Below the pieces are notes generated by a model that did no database searches, was not told the origin of the DNA, and saw only the letters and a list, made by a program, of their open reading frames with translations. This document shows, one piece after another, positions 32,906 through 42,743 of a DNA stretch of 64,000 nt (the stretch's first letter is position 1; every line of letters begins with the position of its first letter). Location: the NCBI GenBank assembly GCA_003635195.1, contig PYIY01000082.1, forward strand, positions 1-64,000, given 5' to 3'. The DNA comes from Candidatus Poribacteria bacterium (lineage in GTDB: Bacteria; Poribacteria; WGA-4E; WGA-3G). The translations under genes were made by a program, and so were the position numbers.

Positions 32906-33877
32906 CTAGCGATAGAGTTCTGTAATGCTATCTAACAGCCCTTTCACCTCATCTGACGACGCGAATTTTTGCTGAATTTCACTAATTAAGGCAGTTATGT
33001 CAGACTCAGTGAGCGGTTGCACCGTGCCTATCACTTCACCCGTTAACGCTCTAACCGCATCGGTAATCACTGATTCAACCTTGTTTTCGTCAAGTGGAAA
33101 CTGTCTACCCTCTGGACCGAGACGGTCATAAACACACTGCGTTAACTCCAAATTACTGAAGATCTCACAATCACTGAAAATGGCACCGACAAGGGTGTTC
33201 CGCATCTTGCCAAGCCGCGAGGAGATAGCCCCGTAACGACGACTCCGCAACACGTTCGCTATGACGTAGTGGATCTCGTCCACTGTCAAATCTTTGAGGG
33301 TCTGCATGTCAACGAACAGTGTTTCCGGCTTGACATACTCATCCTCTTGAATGCTTGAGGATGCCTGTCCAGTAACCGGATCGCGCATTGTGTTGTTATC
33401 ATATAGCGCGTTGAATGTCCGCTTTGCTGTGACGGTTTGGTAGGGTAAAACGCTGAAGGCATCGTCCGTGATGACGCGAGATTTTTGCGCGCCACCGCCC
33501 CCGACAGCATAACCGTAAATCATGCAGTCAGCACACTGTGCACATGGGTTGTTGCGATTGAGCGCGCAAATGTTTTCCTCTGTTGCGTCTCCAGTGTAGA
33601 ATAGTAAGGCATGCTGTCGCAGGAGTTCGCGACCTGTGCGCCGTTCAACAGCAGTCTGTTTACGTTTGCTAATCGTCACGCGAGAGATGGGATCGCGGTT
33701 TTCCTCCTCAAGTCCAGCGTGGACTGTATCTCGGCTTAACCCTTCACCAGAACCCTCTGTGCGGAAGATCATCTCTGATTCTGCCTTCCGTAACACAATT
33801 AGCGTCAGATAACGGCTCTGTGGAAAGTTTTCGTATTCATCGACTATAAAGTCAGTGTATTTATCAAGCGTACTCAT
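32906..33877 (-). CDS. csc2: Csc2 (Cas7 of type I-D)
   Basis: CALNRNNPCAQCADCMIYGYAVGGGGAQKSRVITDDAFSVLPY, typical of Csc2. Confidence 0.92.
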   Translation of the reverse strand: MSTLDKYTDFIVDEYENFPQSRYLTLIVLRKAESEMIFRTEGSGEGLSRDTVHAGLEEENRDPISRVTISKRKQTAVERRTGRELLRQHALLFYTGDATEENICALNRNNPCAQCADCMIYGYAVGGGGAQKSRVITDDAFSVLPYQTVTAKRTFNALYDNNTMRDPVTGQASSSIQEDEYVKPETLFVDMQTLKDLTVDEIHYVIANVLRSRRYGAISSRLGKMRNTLVGAIFSDCEIFSNLELTQCVYDRLGPEGRQFPLDENKVESVITDAVRALTGEVIGTVQPLTESDITALISEIQQKFASSDEVKGLLDSITELYR

Positions 33878-36756
33878 GATTGTTGTTCCTCCTTGTCTCT
33901 ATCGCGTTTTGGAATCATTTCGGTAATAAAATAAAGATATCCAGAACGAATCCGTTTTCGGTTTTCAAGCAAGTTAAGCAAATTGCCTTGATAAACGCCT
34001 TTGTAGATATGATCAAAAAGAACGGTGACAAATTGCGAGATGTTCTCCAATTTTTTCGCGCCAAAGAACCGCTTATCAAGACGCTCAATCGCTCGAGCGA
34101 CCTCTTTAGACATAATAGCCCGCGCCTCTTCTTCGGTTTCATGCTCCGACTGCCAGCGTTCAAGGCTGTCAAAGGCAACATCAAGTGGTTTGGCGAGTGA
34201 ATTATCTTTGAGACTGTCGCCCTTCAACTGCCCTTCCCACGCAATACGAGCGAGTTCTTTAATGTGAGACATAATCGTATCTCCTCCTTTCTGTGCCACG
34301 ACATCGGCAATAAGTTGCACAGTGTCGCGGACGGTTACGAACTGTCGCGGTTCATTTCCGGCTTGTTCGCGTTTAATCATTCGGTGGGTTACATAGTAGA
34401 GTTCAAGTACATCGTAATTTAAACTCCGAATCAAACGTACCAGATCATCCGTGTCAATACTTCCGATTTTCGATCGGATAGTATGCAACTTGAGCAGTTG
34501 TTCAAATACTTGTTGAGTTATATCATGGTTGAGATTGTTATCCGGCAACCATCCCCGAAATGCGGGAGGGATATGGTCGATGAAAAGGTGGCTGAATTCA
34601 TCGCTGGAAAAGAGTGGAATCGACGAATCGGTCAGCACTGCCCGGCACCCTAAAAAGCGTTGATATAACAAAGCATTTTCAATGGCAAATAAAATATTCT
34701 CTGTATGATTGTTCCCAGGCGTATTAACCGGAATCGTTAAAATGTTTCCAAGTGCCTCCGAGAACTTCGGCAGTGGATTTCCGTTGACTTTCGTTCGTGA
34801 AAACGTTAATTCCAACTGTGTCCTTTCCTGATAACTCCGGAGAACATCGTCTGTCTTGAGAAACACGGACGGAAAATCAGGATTGTGGAATTTTTCCTGT
34901 GCTCGTTGAAAAGCTCGAATAAAAACATCAGTAAAAAAGGAAATTGGGTACAGATGGATAAAAAACGTCGCTGTGCTACCGCCGACATTGTAACAGAGTT
35001 TGTTAAGCATGTATTGGGTTCGGCATACACTACAGACGCGGCGTTTCGGCTCACGTGATGATCCACCTTCAAGCCGATTGGAAAACTGTTGCACCTTGAT
35101 ATTCGCTGGTACATCTGGTTTCATCCACAATGCTGTATCAAATTCGGAACCGCAGGTACTACACTGAACGTGGTTATCCTCAACATAACGTTTTAGGTTT
35201 ATGTCAAAACCTCGTTTCCTATCAGCAACAAAGTTGAAATCAACGTATTTGAGAACGTAATCGACCAACAGTCCAAATTCGCTTTCGGTTTCTAAAGTCC
35301 CTAACAATTGGGTGCCGTCTTGGACAATCAACGCGTAAATCTCATCAAACTCACGACCGGCATTGTGAAGATCGCGTCCGATGATGTAGCCGCGGTCCCA
35401 AAGGGCATTAAATAATGCATATCGCTCACGATAGGCTGTATCCTCAGCATTCAATGGCAATTCAAGCAGTCCGTAGATATGTAACCACGCGTCGGTGACG
35501 GTCTCAGAGAAATGCTTATTCAGGAAGATATAGTATGTTCTCACCAACTCCCCGATCCGCATAGCGTCATCATCGGGGGGTAGCCGGTAGGTTTCCGTAT
35601 CTAAGATTTCACCGAGCAGCGTCCGCTGTCCAACCGTTCCTTCTGGGGTAAAAAGAGGTGGTTGTTCACCTTGCTGCTCAACGGCATTCGGATCCGGCTC
35701 GCCCAATTTATCTCGAATTCCCTCAAGTCTTTCCCGACACTTTATGTTCATGGCATCCACTTTCGCGTTTGCGACGTACTTGCGCTCGCTGATGATATTT
35801 CGGACTTCATTCCAAATTTCTGCGAAAGATACGCCGAGTGCAATACACTTTTCATCAACTTTTATACCGGCGGGGCTGCCTTGAATAAACTTGATGAATT
35901 CTCCACGAGTTTTTGACTCAATAGTATGGACAACAGCGTTTCCAATTTCAGCAATTTCATCAGTTGTGATGTGGATGTCGCGTTCCCGATCAACAAGATA
36001 CGCTACACCATCAGGATAATAAAGCAGCGGTAGCAAATCTTTTTCCGATTCCAGATACTTCACAATCTCGTTGTGTATAAGGTTCGTCAGAATACCGCGC
36101 TGTTCGCTTACTTTATGGTATACGAATTTGTACTGAACATCACAGATACTGTTGATTTCCAAAAGAAAATCTCGTTTCTTTGGACGTTCCTCAAGCGTTT
36201 TCGAGAGGTCAATCACATCTATCGCTCGGATGATCGGGACCAGGTAGTTTAGGAGTCTGTCTTTATCCAGCGAATATGGATCGTAACGCTGATCAAGGGT
36301 TTCACCGTAGGTGTTATGGAAGCGTGAATGGGCACGGACCAGGACCTCAATATCCTTCAAATAATCTTGCCATTCCGGGAAGAAGTGATCTATCTCAAGA
36401 TCCGCCAATACGCCACTAATGTTTTCAGCGTTTGCCAAATAGTTAAACGAACGCTTTGTTTCCTGAAATTCTTCAAGCTTGTTCAGATCGTGGACGCTGA
36501 AAGCACCGAATAGAACCTGGATCTCAAAGTCTGTCAAATCCAAAATTGGACGTAACCGTTCCAAGACACAAATCCCGTTAAGAATGTGGAGGTAGAGCGA
36601 TTCACCAGCTTTCGCGCCATATTGGATAATTTCCTGATAGGCACGCAATTTTCGGTTGGCGATTTTGTCCATATAACTTTGAAAGAGGTTCTCCGTATCC
36701 GAATCAATTCCAAAGGTAAATAATAAATCTTCAATTTCGGATTTCCGTTTTGCCAT
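33874..36756 (-). CDS. cas10d: Cas10d (Csc3) with N-terminal HD nuclease domain
   Basis: FGAFSVHDLNKLEEF HD motif, CSTCG...CSVC zinc-binding cysteines, position upstream of csc2; ATG at 36756. Confidence 0.9.
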   Translation of the reverse strand: MAKRKSEIEDLLFTFGIDSDTENLFQSYMDKIANRKLRAYQEIIQYGAKAGESLYLHILNGICVLERLRPILDLTDFEIQVLFGAFSVHDLNKLEEFQETKRSFNYLANAENISGVLADLEIDHFFPEWQDYLKDIEVLVRAHSRFHNTYGETLDQRYDPYSLDKDRLLNYLVPIIRAIDVIDLSKTLEERPKKRDFLLEINSICDVQYKFVYHKVSEQRGILTNLIHNEIVKYLESEKDLLPLLYYPDGVAYLVDRERDIHITTDEIAEIGNAVVHTIESKTRGEFIKFIQGSPAGIKVDEKCIALGVSFAEIWNEVRNIISERKYVANAKVDAMNIKCRERLEGIRDKLGEPDPNAVEQQGEQPPLFTPEGTVGQRTLLGEILDTETYRLPPDDDAMRIGELVRTYYIFLNKHFSETVTDAWLHIYGLLELPLNAEDTAYRERYALFNALWDRGYIIGRDLHNAGREFDEIYALIVQDGTQLLGTLETESEFGLLVDYVLKYVDFNFVADRKRGFDINLKRYVEDNHVQCSTCGSEFDTALWMKPDVPANIKVQQFSNRLEGGSSREPKRRVCSVCRTQYMLNKLCYNVGGSTATFFIHLYPISFFTDVFIRAFQRAQEKFHNPDFPSVFLKTDDVLRSYQERTQLELTFSRTKVNGNPLPKFSEALGNILTIPVNTPGNNHTENILFAIENALLYQRFLGCRAVLTDSSIPLFSSDEFSHLFIDHIPPAFRGWLPDNNLNHDITQQVFEQLLKLHTIRSKIGSIDTDDLVRLIRSLNYDVLELYYVTHRMIKREQAGNEPRQFVTVRDTVQLIADVVAQKGGDTIMSHIKELARIAWEGQLKGDSLKDNSLAKPLDVAFDSLERWQSEHETEEEARAIMSKEVARAIERLDKRFFGAKKLENISQFVTVLFDHIYKGVYQGNLLNLLENRKRIRSGYLYFITEMIPKRDRDKEEQQS

Positions 36757-36835
36757 GATGTCTCCTTTCCAATTGCGTTGATTTGGGCTGATGTATAATC
36801 GCGCAAACCGGCAATTGATTTTCAATCTTCCTTAA

Positions 36836-36864
36836 ATTATACCATATAAAATTAGTGTTTTACA
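36836..36864 (-). promoter_or_regulatory. Candidate cas operon promoter
   Basis: TATAAT on the minus strand (36836-36841) about 80 nt upstream of cas10d; weak -35. Confidence 0.4.
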
Positions 36865-36950
36865 CAAATTTCAAAAAATTCGACCTAAAAATGCAGAAAT
36901 CCAGTCTTTTTTGGTCTTTTTTGAAAAAAATCAGAAATTGCGAAAATTCC

Positions 36951-36979
36951 TTGACTTTTTGTGTAAGAGAGGTTATACT
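36951..36979 (+). promoter_or_regulatory. Sigma70-type promoter of ncRNA unit A
   Basis: TTGACT (36951-36956), 17-nt spacer, TATACT (36974-36979). Confidence 0.7.
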
Positions 36980-36985
36980 TCTATT

Positions 36986-37240
36986 GTGTAATCACTTGCA
37001 GAAGTAAAGTAGCAGCCGAAAACTGTTGCGTATGCCGAGCTGCTTATCGACCAGTCGGTAAGATAGGTTGCCCACCTTTTCACCAAGGTGGTTTTCTGCC
37101 GGAGAACAGACATCTAAAAACATTAGATGAGAATCAGAAGTAAAATCGCAGCCGAAAACTGTTGCGTATGCCATGTTGCCTGTTAAGCCGGTTAGCAGGC
37201 TAGGTTGCCCACCCTCTCACCAAGGTGGTTTTCTGTAGTT
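36986..37240 (+). ncRNA. Unannotated structured ncRNA unit A (two motifs, 36999-37098 and 37135-37235)
   Basis: Each motif has GCAGC...GCTGC/GTTGC closing stem, a variable-sequence hairpin and a terminator-like CCACC...GGTGG-TTTTCTG hairpin. G-U pairs occur only when read on +. Confidence 0.7.
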
Positions 37241-37394
37241 TGTTTAGTAGGGTGGGGTTGTGTGCTCTGCCCTATTTACATATACACCGTGGGACGCGGT
37301 CCCAAGCGTTTTACACGAAAGACAGAAAAATTGACCTAAAAATGCAGAAAATTCGGTCTTTTTTTCAAAAAAAATCAAATATCACGCAAATTTC

Positions 37395-37423
37395 TTGACT
37401 TTTTACGCAAAATTGGGTATACT
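37395..37423 (+). promoter_or_regulatory. Sigma70-type promoter of ncRNA unit B
   Basis: TTGACT (37395-37400), 17-nt spacer, TATACT (37418-37423). Confidence 0.7.
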
Positions 37424-37429
37424 TTATTG

Positions 37430-37655
37430 GATAATTCACTTGCAGAAGTAAAGTAGCAGCCGAAAACTATTGCGTAGGCTGAGCTGCCTACCGACCGGTC
37501 GGTAGGATAGGTTGCCCACCTTCTCGCTAAGGTGGTTTTCTGTCGGTTCCCAGAAGTAAAATCGCAGCCGAAAACTATTGCGTAGGCTGAGTTGTCTCCT
37601 GGCCGGCTGGGAGAATAGGTTGCCCACTCTCTGACGAGGGTGGTTTTCTGTTTTA
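37430..37655 (+). ncRNA. Unannotated structured ncRNA unit B (two motifs, 37443-37542 and 37551-37650)
   Basis: Paralogous to unit A including promoter region; hairpin CCTACCGACCGGTCGGTAGG and terminator-like hairpins. Confidence 0.7.
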
Positions 37656-38252
37656 AAGTTCAACAAGACTACCGCGTTGCTTTGCCTCCGAAAAAAGTGT
37701 CTCAAGATCAGGAGCTTGGTGCTTAAGCAATTCCCCTGCAGCACCAGCTAGGGCATCGGCTAATCGGATGAGAGGTTCATTTTCATCTTTTGAAACTCGA
37801 ATTACCTTTTTTACCGGAAAGCCGAGTTGACGTAAGCCCGTTTTATAAGCACTACGTTTGGCTTTTGCCAGACCGTCAACATAAACGTACACATGAGAAT
37901 TAGAAGGGCTTAACCTGAGTATTGCTTTCGCAATACCATCAATTGTTGCAGCATCGTAATCTGTCCTTTTACGGAAGACACTATAAAACAACGTGACGTT
38001 GAGAGTGGCCGCCTTTTGAATCACAGCACGTAGGTAGTCCAAACGTCTACTTCTTTCTGAAGATGCCCACTTCTTTTTTCTCTTGCCCGAAGTTTCTTCA
38101 AAAGATTCACAAAGTTGACGAAGTTTATCACTGTCCTCTACCGCTACCACAGCGACGATGAACAATCGGCCTCTTGTATCTTGTCCAGATTCGTCAATGT
38201 AGAGGTCCACGCGTTTTTGATTTGCAACCACTGGTTTGGTGTTGCTGCCCAT
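37653..38252 (-). CDS. DUF3800 domain-containing protein
   Basis: VDLYIDESGQDTRGRLFIVAVVAVED and VYVYVDGLAK...IRLADALAGA, typical of DUF3800 (RNase H-like fold prediction). Confidence 0.8.
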   Translation of the reverse strand: MGSNTKPVVANQKRVDLYIDESGQDTRGRLFIVAVVAVEDSDKLRQLCESFEETSGKRKKKWASSERSRRLDYLRAVIQKAATLNVTLFYSVFRKRTDYDAATIDGIAKAILRLSPSNSHVYVYVDGLAKAKRSAYKTGLRQLGFPVKKVIRVSKDENEPLIRLADALAGAAGELLKHQAPDLETLFSEAKQRGSLVEL

Positions 38253-38304
38253 TCCATTCTATCTCATTTTTTTGTTGCATACGAAAACACTAATAACATA
38301 ATAT

Positions 38305-38333
38305 AGTATAACTGCATTTTGTGGAAATGTCAA
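38305..38333 (-). promoter_or_regulatory. Promoter of the DUF3800 gene
   Basis: Minus strand TTGACA (38333-38328), 17-nt spacer, TATACT (38310-38305); predicted start near 38298. Confidence 0.8.
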
Positions 38334-38334
38334 A

Positions 38335-38442
38335 TTTTTTATCTCGTAATCGAGAATCTTTTTGTTAAAATGTCGAAATGCGGCATACGAAAACTCTAAT
38401 TTTTCAATCTCGCCCTCAAGAATCTTATTTGCCACAATCGTA
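38335..38442 (-). ncRNA. CreA/CreR-like crRNA-resembling RNA: degenerate repeat (38437-38401), 29-nt spacer (38400-38372), degenerate repeat (38371-38335)
   Basis: Repeat-like segments match the array repeat at about 23/37 and 27/37 with the hairpin preserved in both; consensus promoter upstream; guide matches the adjacent gene's start region. Confidence 0.8.
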
Positions 38443-38448
38443 CATAAT

Positions 38449-38477
38449 ATTATATATCGCTGAGATTGGTCTGTCAA
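38449..38477 (-). promoter_or_regulatory. Consensus sigma70 promoter of the crRNA-like gene
   Basis: Minus strand TTGACA (38477-38472), 17-nt spacer, TATAAT (38454-38449). Confidence 0.85.
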
Positions 38478-38539: not shown

Positions 38540-39559
38540 TTACAAATCCTCAGCGTAGATTCCATGCATCCGGCGTACAATCTCGCCAAATTCCGCCCGG
38601 AATTCTGGTGGGTCCAAGACCTCTACCGCATCGCCGAGACTCAATACCCAAAATGTGAAGTCTTCTTTCGGGACCTCATAACGGACAATCACAGATCCAT
38701 CTGGGCACCGTTCTATAATCTCTTGTGACCGATGCCGTTCCTTTTCCGTAATGAGATACGCTTTGTGTGCCGCGATTTTGAGCGTCACGGTAATCGGATC
38801 CCCGCTAAAGAGTTCCCATCGAGAATCCAAATTTTCGGACAATGAGAAATCTGGAGGGGGCTCAAACGTTTCCTCTGTCAATTCAACTTCCTGAAAGCGG
38901 AGGATTTTGAAGGTAAGAGACACATTCTCTGATAAATTAGAGTGCGCCTCAAGATACCAATCATCTTTACGGAAAAAGATAGCATACGGGTGGAGCATAT
39001 GTTCAATAGGGTCTGTTTTCCCACCCGGTAGATAACTTGCACGCACCGCCCTTCGAGTTAGAAGTGCTTTCTCCAGCACGCCAAAATATCCATCACTCTC
39101 AGTGTGAAATCTATCTGATTTAAGCTGGATTGAGACGCTGTCGCTTTGGAGATAGTCCGATTCTGCCTCACGAAGAGTGTTTGCTTCCTTTTCTTGTAGT
39201 GCCTTTTCAATGTACCTCGCAAGTGGTGGGTGCAGTCTTTCCAAAAGGCTTTTGAGAGACTTGGAAAAACGCTGCTGCTTTGCAAGGGGTGAAGCCTCAA
39301 TCACCAATTTCAGATTCCGAGCTTCTTCCTTTGTAATACGAGGGGAAGGCATCTTGCGTTGCCCACGAATTCTATAGAAGCTCTGCCTTTTTTCCACAAT
39401 GTAGTACTCTTCCAGAATCTTCAGATCGCTATAGATACGGCTTTGATCAACATCATACAATCTTGCTAATGTAGCAACCTTCATGCCTGAAGATCTTTCC
39501 AGCGTCCTGACTAGATCCAAGATACGCTGTACCTGTTTTCTACCATCACTATATCCCAT
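38540..39559 (-). CDS. HTH-WYL domain transcriptional regulator
   Basis: N-terminal HTH (MKVATLARLYDVDQSRIYSDLKILEE), WYL-like region (VRASYLPGGK...LHPYAIFFRKDDWYLEAHS); likely start ATG at 39559. Confidence 0.85.
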   Translation of the reverse strand: MGYSDGRKQVQRILDLVRTLERSSGMKVATLARLYDVDQSRIYSDLKILEEYYIVEKRQSFYRIRGQRKMPSPRITKEEARNLKLVIEASPLAKQQRFSKSLKSLLERLHPPLARYIEKALQEKEANTLREAESDYLQSDSVSIQLKSDRFHTESDGYFGVLEKALLTRRAVRASYLPGGKTDPIEHMLHPYAIFFRKDDWYLEAHSNLSENVSLTFKILRFQEVELTEETFEPPPDFSLSENLDSRWELFSGDPITVTLKIAAHKAYLITEKERHRSQEIIERCPDGSVIVRYEVPKEDFTFWVLSLGDAVEVLDPPEFRAEFGEIVRRMHGIYAEDL

Positions 39560-40509
39560 ATCTTTCTCCTTTTGAATAGCTGTCAGAACCTCTCCAGCCA
39601 AACGGAAACAATCAGATATAACTATGTTAAGCATAACATAAGAAAATATCCAATGCAAATACCTCTTAGCCAAGGATATGTAAAATTTTTGACAGTAATG
39701 ACTCCCACGCTTTTGTAGAACGGGTTTTCAACCTCCATGTAGAAGCGATGATTTGATAGTAGGATGTCTTAAAATTCGCGTAATCTGAGTAATCCGCGAT
39801 TTGAGGTGGACACGCCCACATGCGACGCGCATTATCGCGCTTTGTATCCGTCCTGAAAAAATAAATTTGAACTCTCATATTATATATGTTATCATGTATA
39901 TACAAACCTAAATTAATTAAAAATATATAATGTATGAAAGGAGCATAGCGCGTAGGTTTTGATGAGCATCCTCAAAACCGGATAGCAAAATAAATCGTTG
40001 CCGACGACTGACTGACAACCAAACCAAATGTTACACTTTTCGCCAAATTATTTTTTTTTCCACAATGACAAGCAACAGCAAAATTGCCTCTAAACCCTTA
40101 CAGTGGCTAAGTTTATACCGATAATCAATTTACAGCAAATGTTACACTGGTGTAACATTTTTAGGACTTACGGACTTTACTCTTAAAATCCTCCTACCGC
40201 TCTGAAGAAACACCGTTTTTGCTTGGGCGTTTCTTAAGCAAACTCCCTATCGCAGATGTATTATTATATCGTTAATTTATATTTAACTCTAAATCTTACT
40301 ATAACCTAAGTTGCCACCTATTTGTGCACATAGCACTCCGCTGGAGTGCAAGAAATTGTAGACCCTATTCTATAGATATACCACCCCGCTGCGGTGAGGA
40401 AAATGCCTAAGCCTCTCGTTGGAACATTCGGAATTGGTTAGTGGCAGCTTGGGTTAAGTATAACAGAAAAAACGCTGAACGCAAACGTTCCCATCATATT
40501 AACAGGTAG

Positions 40510-41298
<789 letters not shown>

Positions 41299-41299
41299 A

Positions 41300-42694
41300 A
41301 TGGATACCGCTATTGTTCTCGCTGCAGGATTAGGACGCAAGGTATGGCCCTATGGTGAATTTCGGCAGAAATGCACAATCCCTGTCGCCAATAAGCCGAT
41401 TGTTCGCCGAGTCGTAGAAAATTTGCTTGAGGCAGGCTATCAGCGCATTGTTGTTGTGGTAGGGCATCACGCGCAACAGGTGCGCGGCGCACTTGCCGAT
41501 ATACCGAACACTGTTTTCGTTACGCAGCATTCGCTTGAAGGCACCGCAAGTGCGGTGCTAACAGCACTCGAACATCTCGAAGATCAACCCTATCTCGTCG
41601 TTTACGGTGACACCGTAACCACTGCTGATAATCTCCGTAACTTTACTAAAGAATTCCGATCATACAACGTAGAAGCCGCGGCACTCGTGCAAGCACTCGG
41701 AGACGAAGACGCAAGCGACTGGCTTTGCGCCGGTATCGGGACGGAGGAGGTCGAAAACAGGCGTGTTTTAAAACTTAACGGTATTGAGGGACACCCACGC
41801 GGCGGCTCACATCGGCTTTGTGGCGTATACGCTTTCAAGAGTTGCGCGACAACCTACCTCTTAAGCAACCCCGGCATCGTTACACGTGTACCCGTAGGTG
41901 GCATGCCGCCACCTGAATCCGAAATCGCACAATCCTTACAACTGATGGTGGACGACGGAAGGACTGTATTAGCGGTTCAGGCAGAGGATTTCTTCGTTGA
42001 TGTCGATAAGCCGTGGCACGTGCTGGAAGCGAACAATCGGCTCGTCGATTATCTCACGAAACAGGTTACAGAAGATCAAATAGCAGATGGCGCGAAAATC
42101 TCGGATGCCGCTGAAATTAATGGACACGTTGTGTTGGGAAAAAATAGCGTGATCGGACCCCGTGTCGTCGTCAACGGCACCCTTATCGCAGGCGCGAATA
42201 ACAACATCACAAACGGTGCGATTCTACACGGGAATATCTTCGTCGGAGACCAGTGTAGAATCAGCGATTATTGCGATGTCGGCAGTAGTGCCATCGGAAA
42301 TCGGTGTATCATCGGGCACGGTGCCGAAATGGCGGGTGTCTTGTTCGATAAGGTCTATCTTTATCATTACTGTGAGATGTCCGGCGTTTTCGGGTGCGCT
42401 ACCGATATCGGTGCAGCAACGGTATGCGGGACGCTCCGGTTCGATGATAAGGATACCCCAATACAAGTGGAAGGACGTTACGAAATCCCGCCCTACGGCG
42501 CGAATGCGACCTACATGGGTGACTATTGCCGGACCGGGGTGAATGCCATAATTATGCCGGGGCGGCGGATCGGGGCTTATAGTGTTGTTGGCCCGGGGGT
42601 TATTTTATACGACGATGTACCGAGCAAAACTATGGTGATGGCGAAACAGGAATTAATTACCAAACCGTGGGGACCGGAACGTTATGGATGGTAA
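41300..42694 (+). CDS. GlmU-like sugar-1-phosphate nucleotidylyltransferase/acyltransferase
   Basis: AIVLAAGLGRKVWPYGE, YGDTVTT, left-handed beta-helix hexapeptides. Confidence 0.85.
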   Translation: MDTAIVLAAGLGRKVWPYGEFRQKCTIPVANKPIVRRVVENLLEAGYQRIVVVVGHHAQQVRGALADIPNTVFVTQHSLEGTASAVLTALEHLEDQPYLVVYGDTVTTADNLRNFTKEFRSYNVEAAALVQALGDEDASDWLCAGIGTEEVENRRVLKLNGIEGHPRGGSHRLCGVYAFKSCATTYLLSNPGIVTRVPVGGMPPPESEIAQSLQLMVDDGRTVLAVQAEDFFVDVDKPWHVLEANNRLVDYLTKQVTEDQIADGAKISDAAEINGHVVLGKNSVIGPRVVVNGTLIAGANNNITNGAILHGNIFVGDQCRISDYCDVGSSAIGNRCIIGHGAEMAGVLFDKVYLYHYCEMSGVFGCATDIGAATVCGTLRFDDKDTPIQVEGRYEIPPYGANATYMGDYCRTGVNAIIMPGRRIGAYSVVGPGVILYDDVPSKTMVMAKQELITKPWGPERYGW

Positions 42695-42743
42695 ATGTCT
42701 CTTCGCAGTAGGAGCGAGCTGTGCTCGCGATATTTCTAAAACA

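Follow-up and report, generated by a model that had tools for sequence, protein, structure and literature searches.

Type III toxin-antitoxin systems such as ToxIN pair a nuclease gene with an adjacent structured RNA made of tandem repeats. Structured RNAs associated with genes for DUF3800 proteins, the DUF3800 motif RNAs, were reportedly described by Weinberg et al. in 2017. For DUF3800, an association with non-coding RNAs has been noted and an RNase H fold predicted earlier (PMC10910872), and it has also been recorded as accessory to class 2 CRISPR loci (PMC10910872, PMC12669027); these genes and their neighboring structured RNAs have so far been catalogued without a function. Repression by a CRISPR-like guide is known from: 1) CreTA, CRISPR-regulated toxin-antitoxin RNA pairs, for which in haloarchaea Cascade requires positions 1-5 and 7-11 of the CreA guide to repress the toxin promoter (PMC8501985), and for which in the type I-F version from Acinetobacter the guide is directed to a site immediately downstream of the promoter, with its 6th nucleotide left unpaired (PMC10097628); 2) CrePA, a CRISPR-repressed protein toxin, for which an anti-anti-CRISPR role is predicted and whose CreP, a protein of the KilA-N kind, acts on cell division (PMC12737573). 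A 2025 review lists further CRISPR types, and further targets in the cell, among the open questions (PMC12737573). As for type I-D systems, their PAM is GTN and WYL proteins serve as their regulators (PMC10212523). Here we describe a locus in which a DUF3800 gene, as judged from sequence comparisons, is apparently kept in check by a decoy CRISPR guide, an arrangement suggestive of a self-destruct or backup device for the event that CRISPR immunity is disabled.

The stretch of DNA analyzed (the window; 64,000 nucleotides from the start of contig PYIY01000082.1 of a Candidatus Poribacteria bacterium) carries a type I-D operon with the gene order Cas10d, Csc2, Csc1, Cas3d, Cas6, Cas4-Cas1, which begins with cas10d (33874-36765, minus strand) and extends to 27230. 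Its CRISPR array of about 80 repeats (20494 to about 26390, minus strand, which is also the crRNA strand) has the repeat GTTTCAATCTCGTAATCGAGATACTTTTCTTTTCAAG with the crRNA-sense core CTCGATTACGAGATTGAAAC. A gene for a WYL-domain regulator is found at 38540-39673 on the minus strand. A sequence-only reading of the intervening DNA had described four copies of a structured motif in two tandem paralogous units with promoters at 36951 and 37395, all of which are indeed present on the plus strand, and had left out a DUF3800 gene (37653-38252) and a pseudo-CRISPR (38335-38437) beyond them. The motifs are about 100 nt long and form two promoter-driven pairs, each behind a TTGACT-N17-TATACT promoter read from the sequence. 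Pair A (promoter 36951-36979; motif A1 at 36999-37099, covariance model score 119.6 bits; motif A2 at 37135-37236, 111.1 bits) has the longer spacing, approximately 136 nt, and is not directly followed by a DUF3800 gene. Pair B (promoter 37395-37423; B1 at 37443-37543, 123.1 bits; B2 at 37551-37651, 113.1 bits) ends with the 3' end of B2 adjoining the stop codon of the DUF3800 gene, which converges on it. A conserved AT-rich block precedes both RNA units (36854-36899 and 37305-37350) and recurs upstream of the RNA or of cas genes in relatives; it is possibly an operator for the WYL regulator.

To characterize the fold we examined an alignment of 42 distinct homologous copies, in which 97.1% of the cells of the 27 consensus pairs are standard-paired, 14 of these pairs have changes on both sides, and covariation scores 0.314, above shuffles (0.181) and slid controls (at most 0.10). 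The pairing, the two-sided changes and the covariation score above controls together place the motif region beyond chance, in line with the structured RNA genes first proposed for it. The consensus comprises P1 (CAGAA/UUCUG), P2 (GCAGCC/GGUUGC, columns 15-20/70-75; 97.6% paired, with G-C replaced by A-U in six copies), the variable hairpin P3, P4 (CCACC/GGUGG) and a small GC(GUAU)GC hairpin whose A-U/G-C cap covaries. All eight pairs of P3 covary, its sequence changing while its pairing is kept, as had been surmised from the window's copies. Likewise, the argument that wobble pairs reveal the strand is borne out: columns 18-72 form a G-U pair in 39 of the 42 copies, and since this would become C-A on the opposite strand the RNA is read on the plus strand. 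The GCAGC segment was also rightly seen to pair, but the partner assigned to it, GCUGC or GUUGC (columns 15-19/42-46; 93.3% paired), is weaker than the GGUUGC of P2; the GCAGCC/GGUUGC and GCAGC/GCUGC helices have one covarying column in common and could alternate. The GAAAAC/GUUUUC alternative is paired in 98.8% of the cells and never covaries, its columns hardly varying.

Searches with Rfam assigned the motif to no catalogued family: the window yielded no match at gathering scores, and the RNA region only nonsense matches at E-values up to 10. The RF02969 model had no match anywhere in the genomes of the phylum, but as its controls likewise remained without a match this carries no weight. No CRISPR repeat or anti-repeat, as would mark array-derived or tracrRNA-like RNA, was detected within 36999-37651, so that a derivation of the RNA from the CRISPR repeat was rejected. 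Taken together, the comparative evidence indicates that the four motifs are real structured RNA genes and that they represent a new covarying family, set apart from the known ones by Rfam models.

The gene that converges on pair B (37653-38252, minus strand) codes for a protein of 199 residues whose only Pfam match is DUF3800 (PF12686, E 3.9e-9); a TTGACA-N17-TATACT promoter for it is read at 38305-38333 on the same strand. The protein is conserved as such across loci, and it is thus neither the small-RNA toxin of CreTA nor the KilA-N protein of CrePA in the strict sense. As sequence searches against solved structures gave no match, we turned to a fold search with the predicted structure (pLDDT 91), in which RNase HII/H2 was the best match (E 6.5e-6, probability 1.0). 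D20, D126 and D166 are conserved across the DUF3800 alignment and E21 in most members; we take these acidic residues, as a pattern rather than by residue-by-residue superposition, to resemble the DEDD site of type 2 RNases H. Searches for relatives on plasmids, phages and viral contigs found none, and the array spacers have no matches to the RNA or to DUF3800 beyond short, chance-level ones.

Directly upstream of the DUF3800 promoter lies a CreA-like unit on the minus strand, which has a TTGACA-N17-TATAAT promoter of its own (38449-38477) and comprises: 1) pseudo-repeat 1 (38401-38437), which is identical to the array repeat at 22 of 37 positions and ends in the crRNA-type handle GAGATTGAAAA; 2) a 29-nt pseudo-spacer, ATTAGAGTTTTCGTATGCCGCATTTCGAC (38372-38400), with a seed match to the DUF3800 start site; 3) pseudo-repeat 2 (38335-38371), which at 27 of 37 positions is the best match to the array repeat anywhere in the window outside the array. 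In crRNA sense the pseudo-spacer begins ATTAGAGTTTTCGTATGC, and the DUF3800 start site (38277-38297, minus strand) reads GTT-ATTAGTGTTTTCGTATGC, with the PAM GTT at 38297-38295 followed by ATTAGTGTTTTCGTATGC at 38294-38277. Seed positions 1-5 and 7-11 match this site at 10 of 10 positions, and position 6 is the sole mismatch in the first 18 nt. Thus, as in CreTA and CrePA, degenerate repeats outside the array surround a spacer-like sequence, which partially matches, next to a PAM, the start of the gene that it would control. Because their repeats are so degenerate, such units are missed by repeat-only CRISPR annotation. The same 11-nt seed also matches at 10 of 10 positions near the promoter of the cas operon (36851-36861), with AAA where the PAM is expected; this is possibly a relic or a CreR-like site.

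BLASTN searches recovered the motif from 15 genomes of the genus, the window's own included, and from none of 24 genomes outside it. As had been suggested for the motif, we then searched related genomes with a covariance model (R1, built from the 42 copies), which, run over 85 genomes of the phylum, detected the RNA at 27 loci in 25 Poribacteria genomes, spanning four genera of a single family. Copies come in pairs, or in triplets in one genus, with a spacing of about 108 or 131-137 nt, of which the window holds one pair each; lone copies occur only at L119 and L122. Each of the 15 RNA-positive genomes in the genus has a gene for the WYL regulator. The proposed linkage to type I-D genes held in so far as the RNA often adjoins them, but in relatives it is also found beside type I-B genes, a type I restriction-modification (RM) gene, ParA/ParB-like genes, or nothing CRISPR-like; hence it was rejected as a generic type I-D component. 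The region is a hot spot, one flank of which is conserved (WYL, BioD and nucleotidyltransferase genes; 38540-42700 in the window, and in relatives), with a type I-D system (of two lineages), a type I-B system or a type I RM system on the other side. At L041/L124 and L119 the RNA and DUF3800, or its remains, lie beside ParA/ParB-like genes with no CreA-like unit, which suggests that the pair moves on plasmid-like DNA.

The consistent partner of the RNA is the convergent DUF3800 gene rather than the cas genes. DUF3800 or a part of it is present at 15 of the 27 loci, and at most of those with both, the RNA ends 2-7 nt past the DUF3800 stop. At the other 12 the RNA has no detectable DUF3800 and usually sits between the cas genes and the WYL gene. 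Within the R1-type family DUF3800 never occurs without the RNA, so that the RNA is kept without the protein and never the reverse, an asymmetry typical of toxin and antitoxin that would also fit an RNA with a job of its own; the RNA-only loci show no visible decay, which is odd for orphan antitoxins. Outside this RNA family, DUF3800 homologs that are 34-38% identical are likewise accompanied by an RNA at this spot. When R1 was run unfiltered over seven loci, its best match was L036, from another Poribacteria family (27 bits, E 1.6e-4), followed by L047 from Andersenbacteria, a weak match (10.9 bits, E 2.3) for which the evidence is position and not score; both lie on the convergent strand directly after the stop of a 34%-identical DUF3800 gene, and at L036/L125 and L047 this arrangement is found without cas genes. 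Other Poribacteria DUF3800 clades have different convergent promoter-RNA-terminator units at the 3' spot, whose RNAs, when aligned by eye, share a core with GAAnAC on the 5' side and UAGG on the 3' side of a helix. The occurrence of related or analogous convergent RNAs with diverged DUF3800 genes, including those of another phylum, indicates that these RNAs are DUF3800-associated. A larger DUF3800 class of about 284 residues (L154, G000:C19) also has a convergent promoter and a hairpin RNA of unrelated sequence at its 3' end.

The CreA-like layout recurs at 12 DUF3800 loci, namely the window, L043, L048, L049, L052, L053, L055, L056, L115 and L117, and, before a second DUF3800 clade, L096 and L098. 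Seed positions 1-5 and 7-11 match the target at 10 of 10 positions in ten of these (9 of 10 in L096, 8 of 10 in L056), and the PAM is GTN in 11, the exception being L049 with GCT. The seeds differ between loci (ATTAG.GTTTT, ATTAG.ATTTT, ATCAG.ATTTT, ATTGG.ATTTT, ATTTG.ATTTT) and the targets change with them. Several of the loci (L043, L048) adjoin type I-B rather than I-D genes; the repeat core CTCGNNNNCGAGATTGAAAC is nevertheless present in all 11 CreA-DUF3800 genomes tested, those with type I-B neighbors included, and hence the pseudo-repeats match a repeat of the same genome. Among the CreA-bearing DUF3800 genes, those of L048 and L052 read as interrupted, and there are truncated ones as well. 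The L098 unit (L098:3785-4651, G000:C29) belongs to the second type I-D locus of the window's own genome, where the clade-b DUF3800 gene is co-directional with the cas genes and faces a short convergent RNA, GUGCAGGACUGAACCC...UGUAGGCCCUGC. At L060 (7607-7705), from a genome in which no cas10d was detected, two near-perfect ectopic repeats are separated by 64 nt and lie close to Uma2-like ORFs; they could represent either a remnant or a further guide unit.

A thirteenth unit precedes an ORF of about 80 codons upstream of cas10d in a relative (L099:6645-7107, the same as L071:947-1410; G030). It has the unrelated seed ATGGT.GCGTT on both sides, with the PAM GTT and a mismatch at position 6, and its ORF, which matches no Pfam family, is a candidate for another CRISPR-repressed gene. 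Position 6 is mismatched in 8 of the 13 units, as against 3 of 130 other seed positions (p 5e-8), and for 12 of the 13 no more than 0.4% of shuffled target regions attain the score for seed plus PAM. The unit is found at 10 of the 15 RNA loci with DUF3800 and at none without (p 7e-4, computed with 11 DUF3800-less loci; the twelfth, L119, also lacks it). As most of the loci are related by descent these p-values overstate independence, and it is L099 and the co-varying seeds that carry most weight. Five loci with both DUF3800 and the RNA (L041, L044, L051, L061, L122) have no CreA-like unit, suggesting that CRISPR control is an add-on. Thus, the link to cas genes as such, proposed from the window alone, gives way to a different CRISPR link, namely a crRNA-like unit that lies outside the array and is directed at the promoter of DUF3800.

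The agreement of the window with CreTA in the seed, position 6 and the target site, along with the GTN PAM and the WYL gene, points to Cascade as the probable repressor of DUF3800. We consider it somewhat more probable than an even chance that the RNAs are partners of a nuclease-like DUF3800 protein whose gene the local CRISPR-Cas system carries as a toxin-like cargo under CRISPR repression. While the anatomy of this module is well supported, we infer the toxicity of the predicted nuclease from its fold and from the asymmetry between RNA and DUF3800, and the role of the RNA likewise. In our best reading, the module would be a I-D/I-B CRISPR-repressed one that follows the CreTA/CrePA logic, with DUF3800 as effector and the RNA as its probable antitoxin. 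Cas6 would mature a pseudo-crRNA from the CreA-like unit, with which Cascade would bind the DUF3800 start site and, because the pairing is partial, block transcription without cutting. Upon loss or inhibition of Cascade, by gene loss or an anti-CRISPR protein, DUF3800 would be made and might attack cellular nucleic acid, and the ensuing dormancy or death might guard the CRISPR locus or abort infection. The RNA might bind DUF3800 through its conserved core (the P2 helix, which has GAAnAC on one side and UAG opposite) and would most likely restrain it in the manner of an RNA antitoxin. Its tandem copies might act as a sponge, and pair A and the RNA-only loci might be surviving antitoxin. More tentatively, and with somewhat less than an even chance of being right in full, the module could be a doubly restrained device, in which the guide and a I-D or I-B Cascade block transcription, the tandem RNA restrains the protein, and a disabling of CRISPR that outpaces the antitoxin leads to abortive infection.

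The main rival to the antitoxin role retains the CRISPR-repressed DUF3800 module and makes the RNA a cofactor, an activator or guide required for an active ribonucleoprotein. The constant presence of an RNA partner with DUF3800 across divergent clades and phyla and the conserved core speak for it, as do the earlier records of DUF3800 with non-coding RNAs and at class 2 CRISPR loci (PMC10910872, PMC12669027). However, the RNA persists at 12 of 27 loci without detectable DUF3800, has a separate, constitutive-looking promoter, and contains no variable guide-like segment, P3 varying in sequence with its pairing kept; we regard a cofactor role as a serious but clearly less probable option. It is improbable that the RNA regulates the WYL/CRISPR locus, as a protein sponge or a regulator of cas genes, and adjoins DUF3800 only incidentally: its constant company of the WYL gene in the genus and the position of the DUF3800-less copies between cas and WYL genes would suit such a role, but at L120 and L124 it has neither as adjacent genes, and DUF3800 homologs far outside the genus have a convergent RNA where no cas genes occur (L036/L125, L047).

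As to the pseudo-repeat unit, ectopic repeats can be remnants, and the seed match near the cas promoter at 36851, albeit with AAA in place of a PAM, might speak for a CreR-type autoregulator of cas genes. Yet a decayed CRISPR remnant or such an autoregulator, in place of a DUF3800 repressor, is very unlikely given the unit's own consensus promoter, a conserved seed whose target co-varies, the GTN PAM at the DUF3800 start site and its absence from DUF3800-less RNA loci. The tandem, duplicated motifs at a variable genomic hot spot also bring transposon ends or other untranscribed repeats to mind, an explanation we find barely credible, as the motifs have compensatory changes with one-strand G-U pairs and consensus promoters, and are accompanied by no transposase, inverted pair or mobility outside one family.

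If the doubly restrained reading is true, this would be the first protein/RNA toxin-antitoxin system under CRISPR guidance, and it would give a function to the long-puzzling DUF3800-ncRNA pairs. With the guide target, PAM and seed readable from the sequence, that function is directly testable. The module would also add type I-D, and a class of RNase-H-like proteins, to the range of CRISPR-repressed toxins; in the literature, as incompletely covered here, we found no paper combining DUF3800, CreA or a type I-D CreTA.

In comparison with the known systems, the module shares with the type I-B and I-F CreTA a pseudo-spacer that is enclosed by degenerate repeats and adjoins a type I cas operon, and the PAM with a partial seed match (1-5 and 7-11, the 6th unpaired) at the promoter or start of the controlled gene (PMC8501985, PMC10097628). 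It departs from CreTA in its effector, a protein of about 200 residues instead of a toxic small RNA, in its I-D (and I-B) setting, and in its additional structured RNA family. As in CrePA, a crRNA-like guide would repress a protein-coding gene (PMC12737573), but here the protein is an RNase HII-like DUF3800 and has an RNA partner. Like the DUF3800 motif RNAs (Rfam RF02968, RF02969 and others), the structured RNA adjoins a DUF3800 gene (15 of 27 loci, and distant homologs); it differs in that it matches none of the Rfam covariance models and comes in tandem pairs or triplets tied to CRISPR loci. The tandem-repeat structured RNA beside a nuclease-like gene is reminiscent of ToxIN, from which the module differs in that the genes are convergent with separate promoters rather than in one operon, the repeats number 2-3 and measure about 100 nt, and the predicted fold is that of RNase HII/H2 and not of ToxN. 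The module thus works like CreTA and CrePA and is neither in the strict sense, its effector being neither an RNA nor a KilA-N protein.
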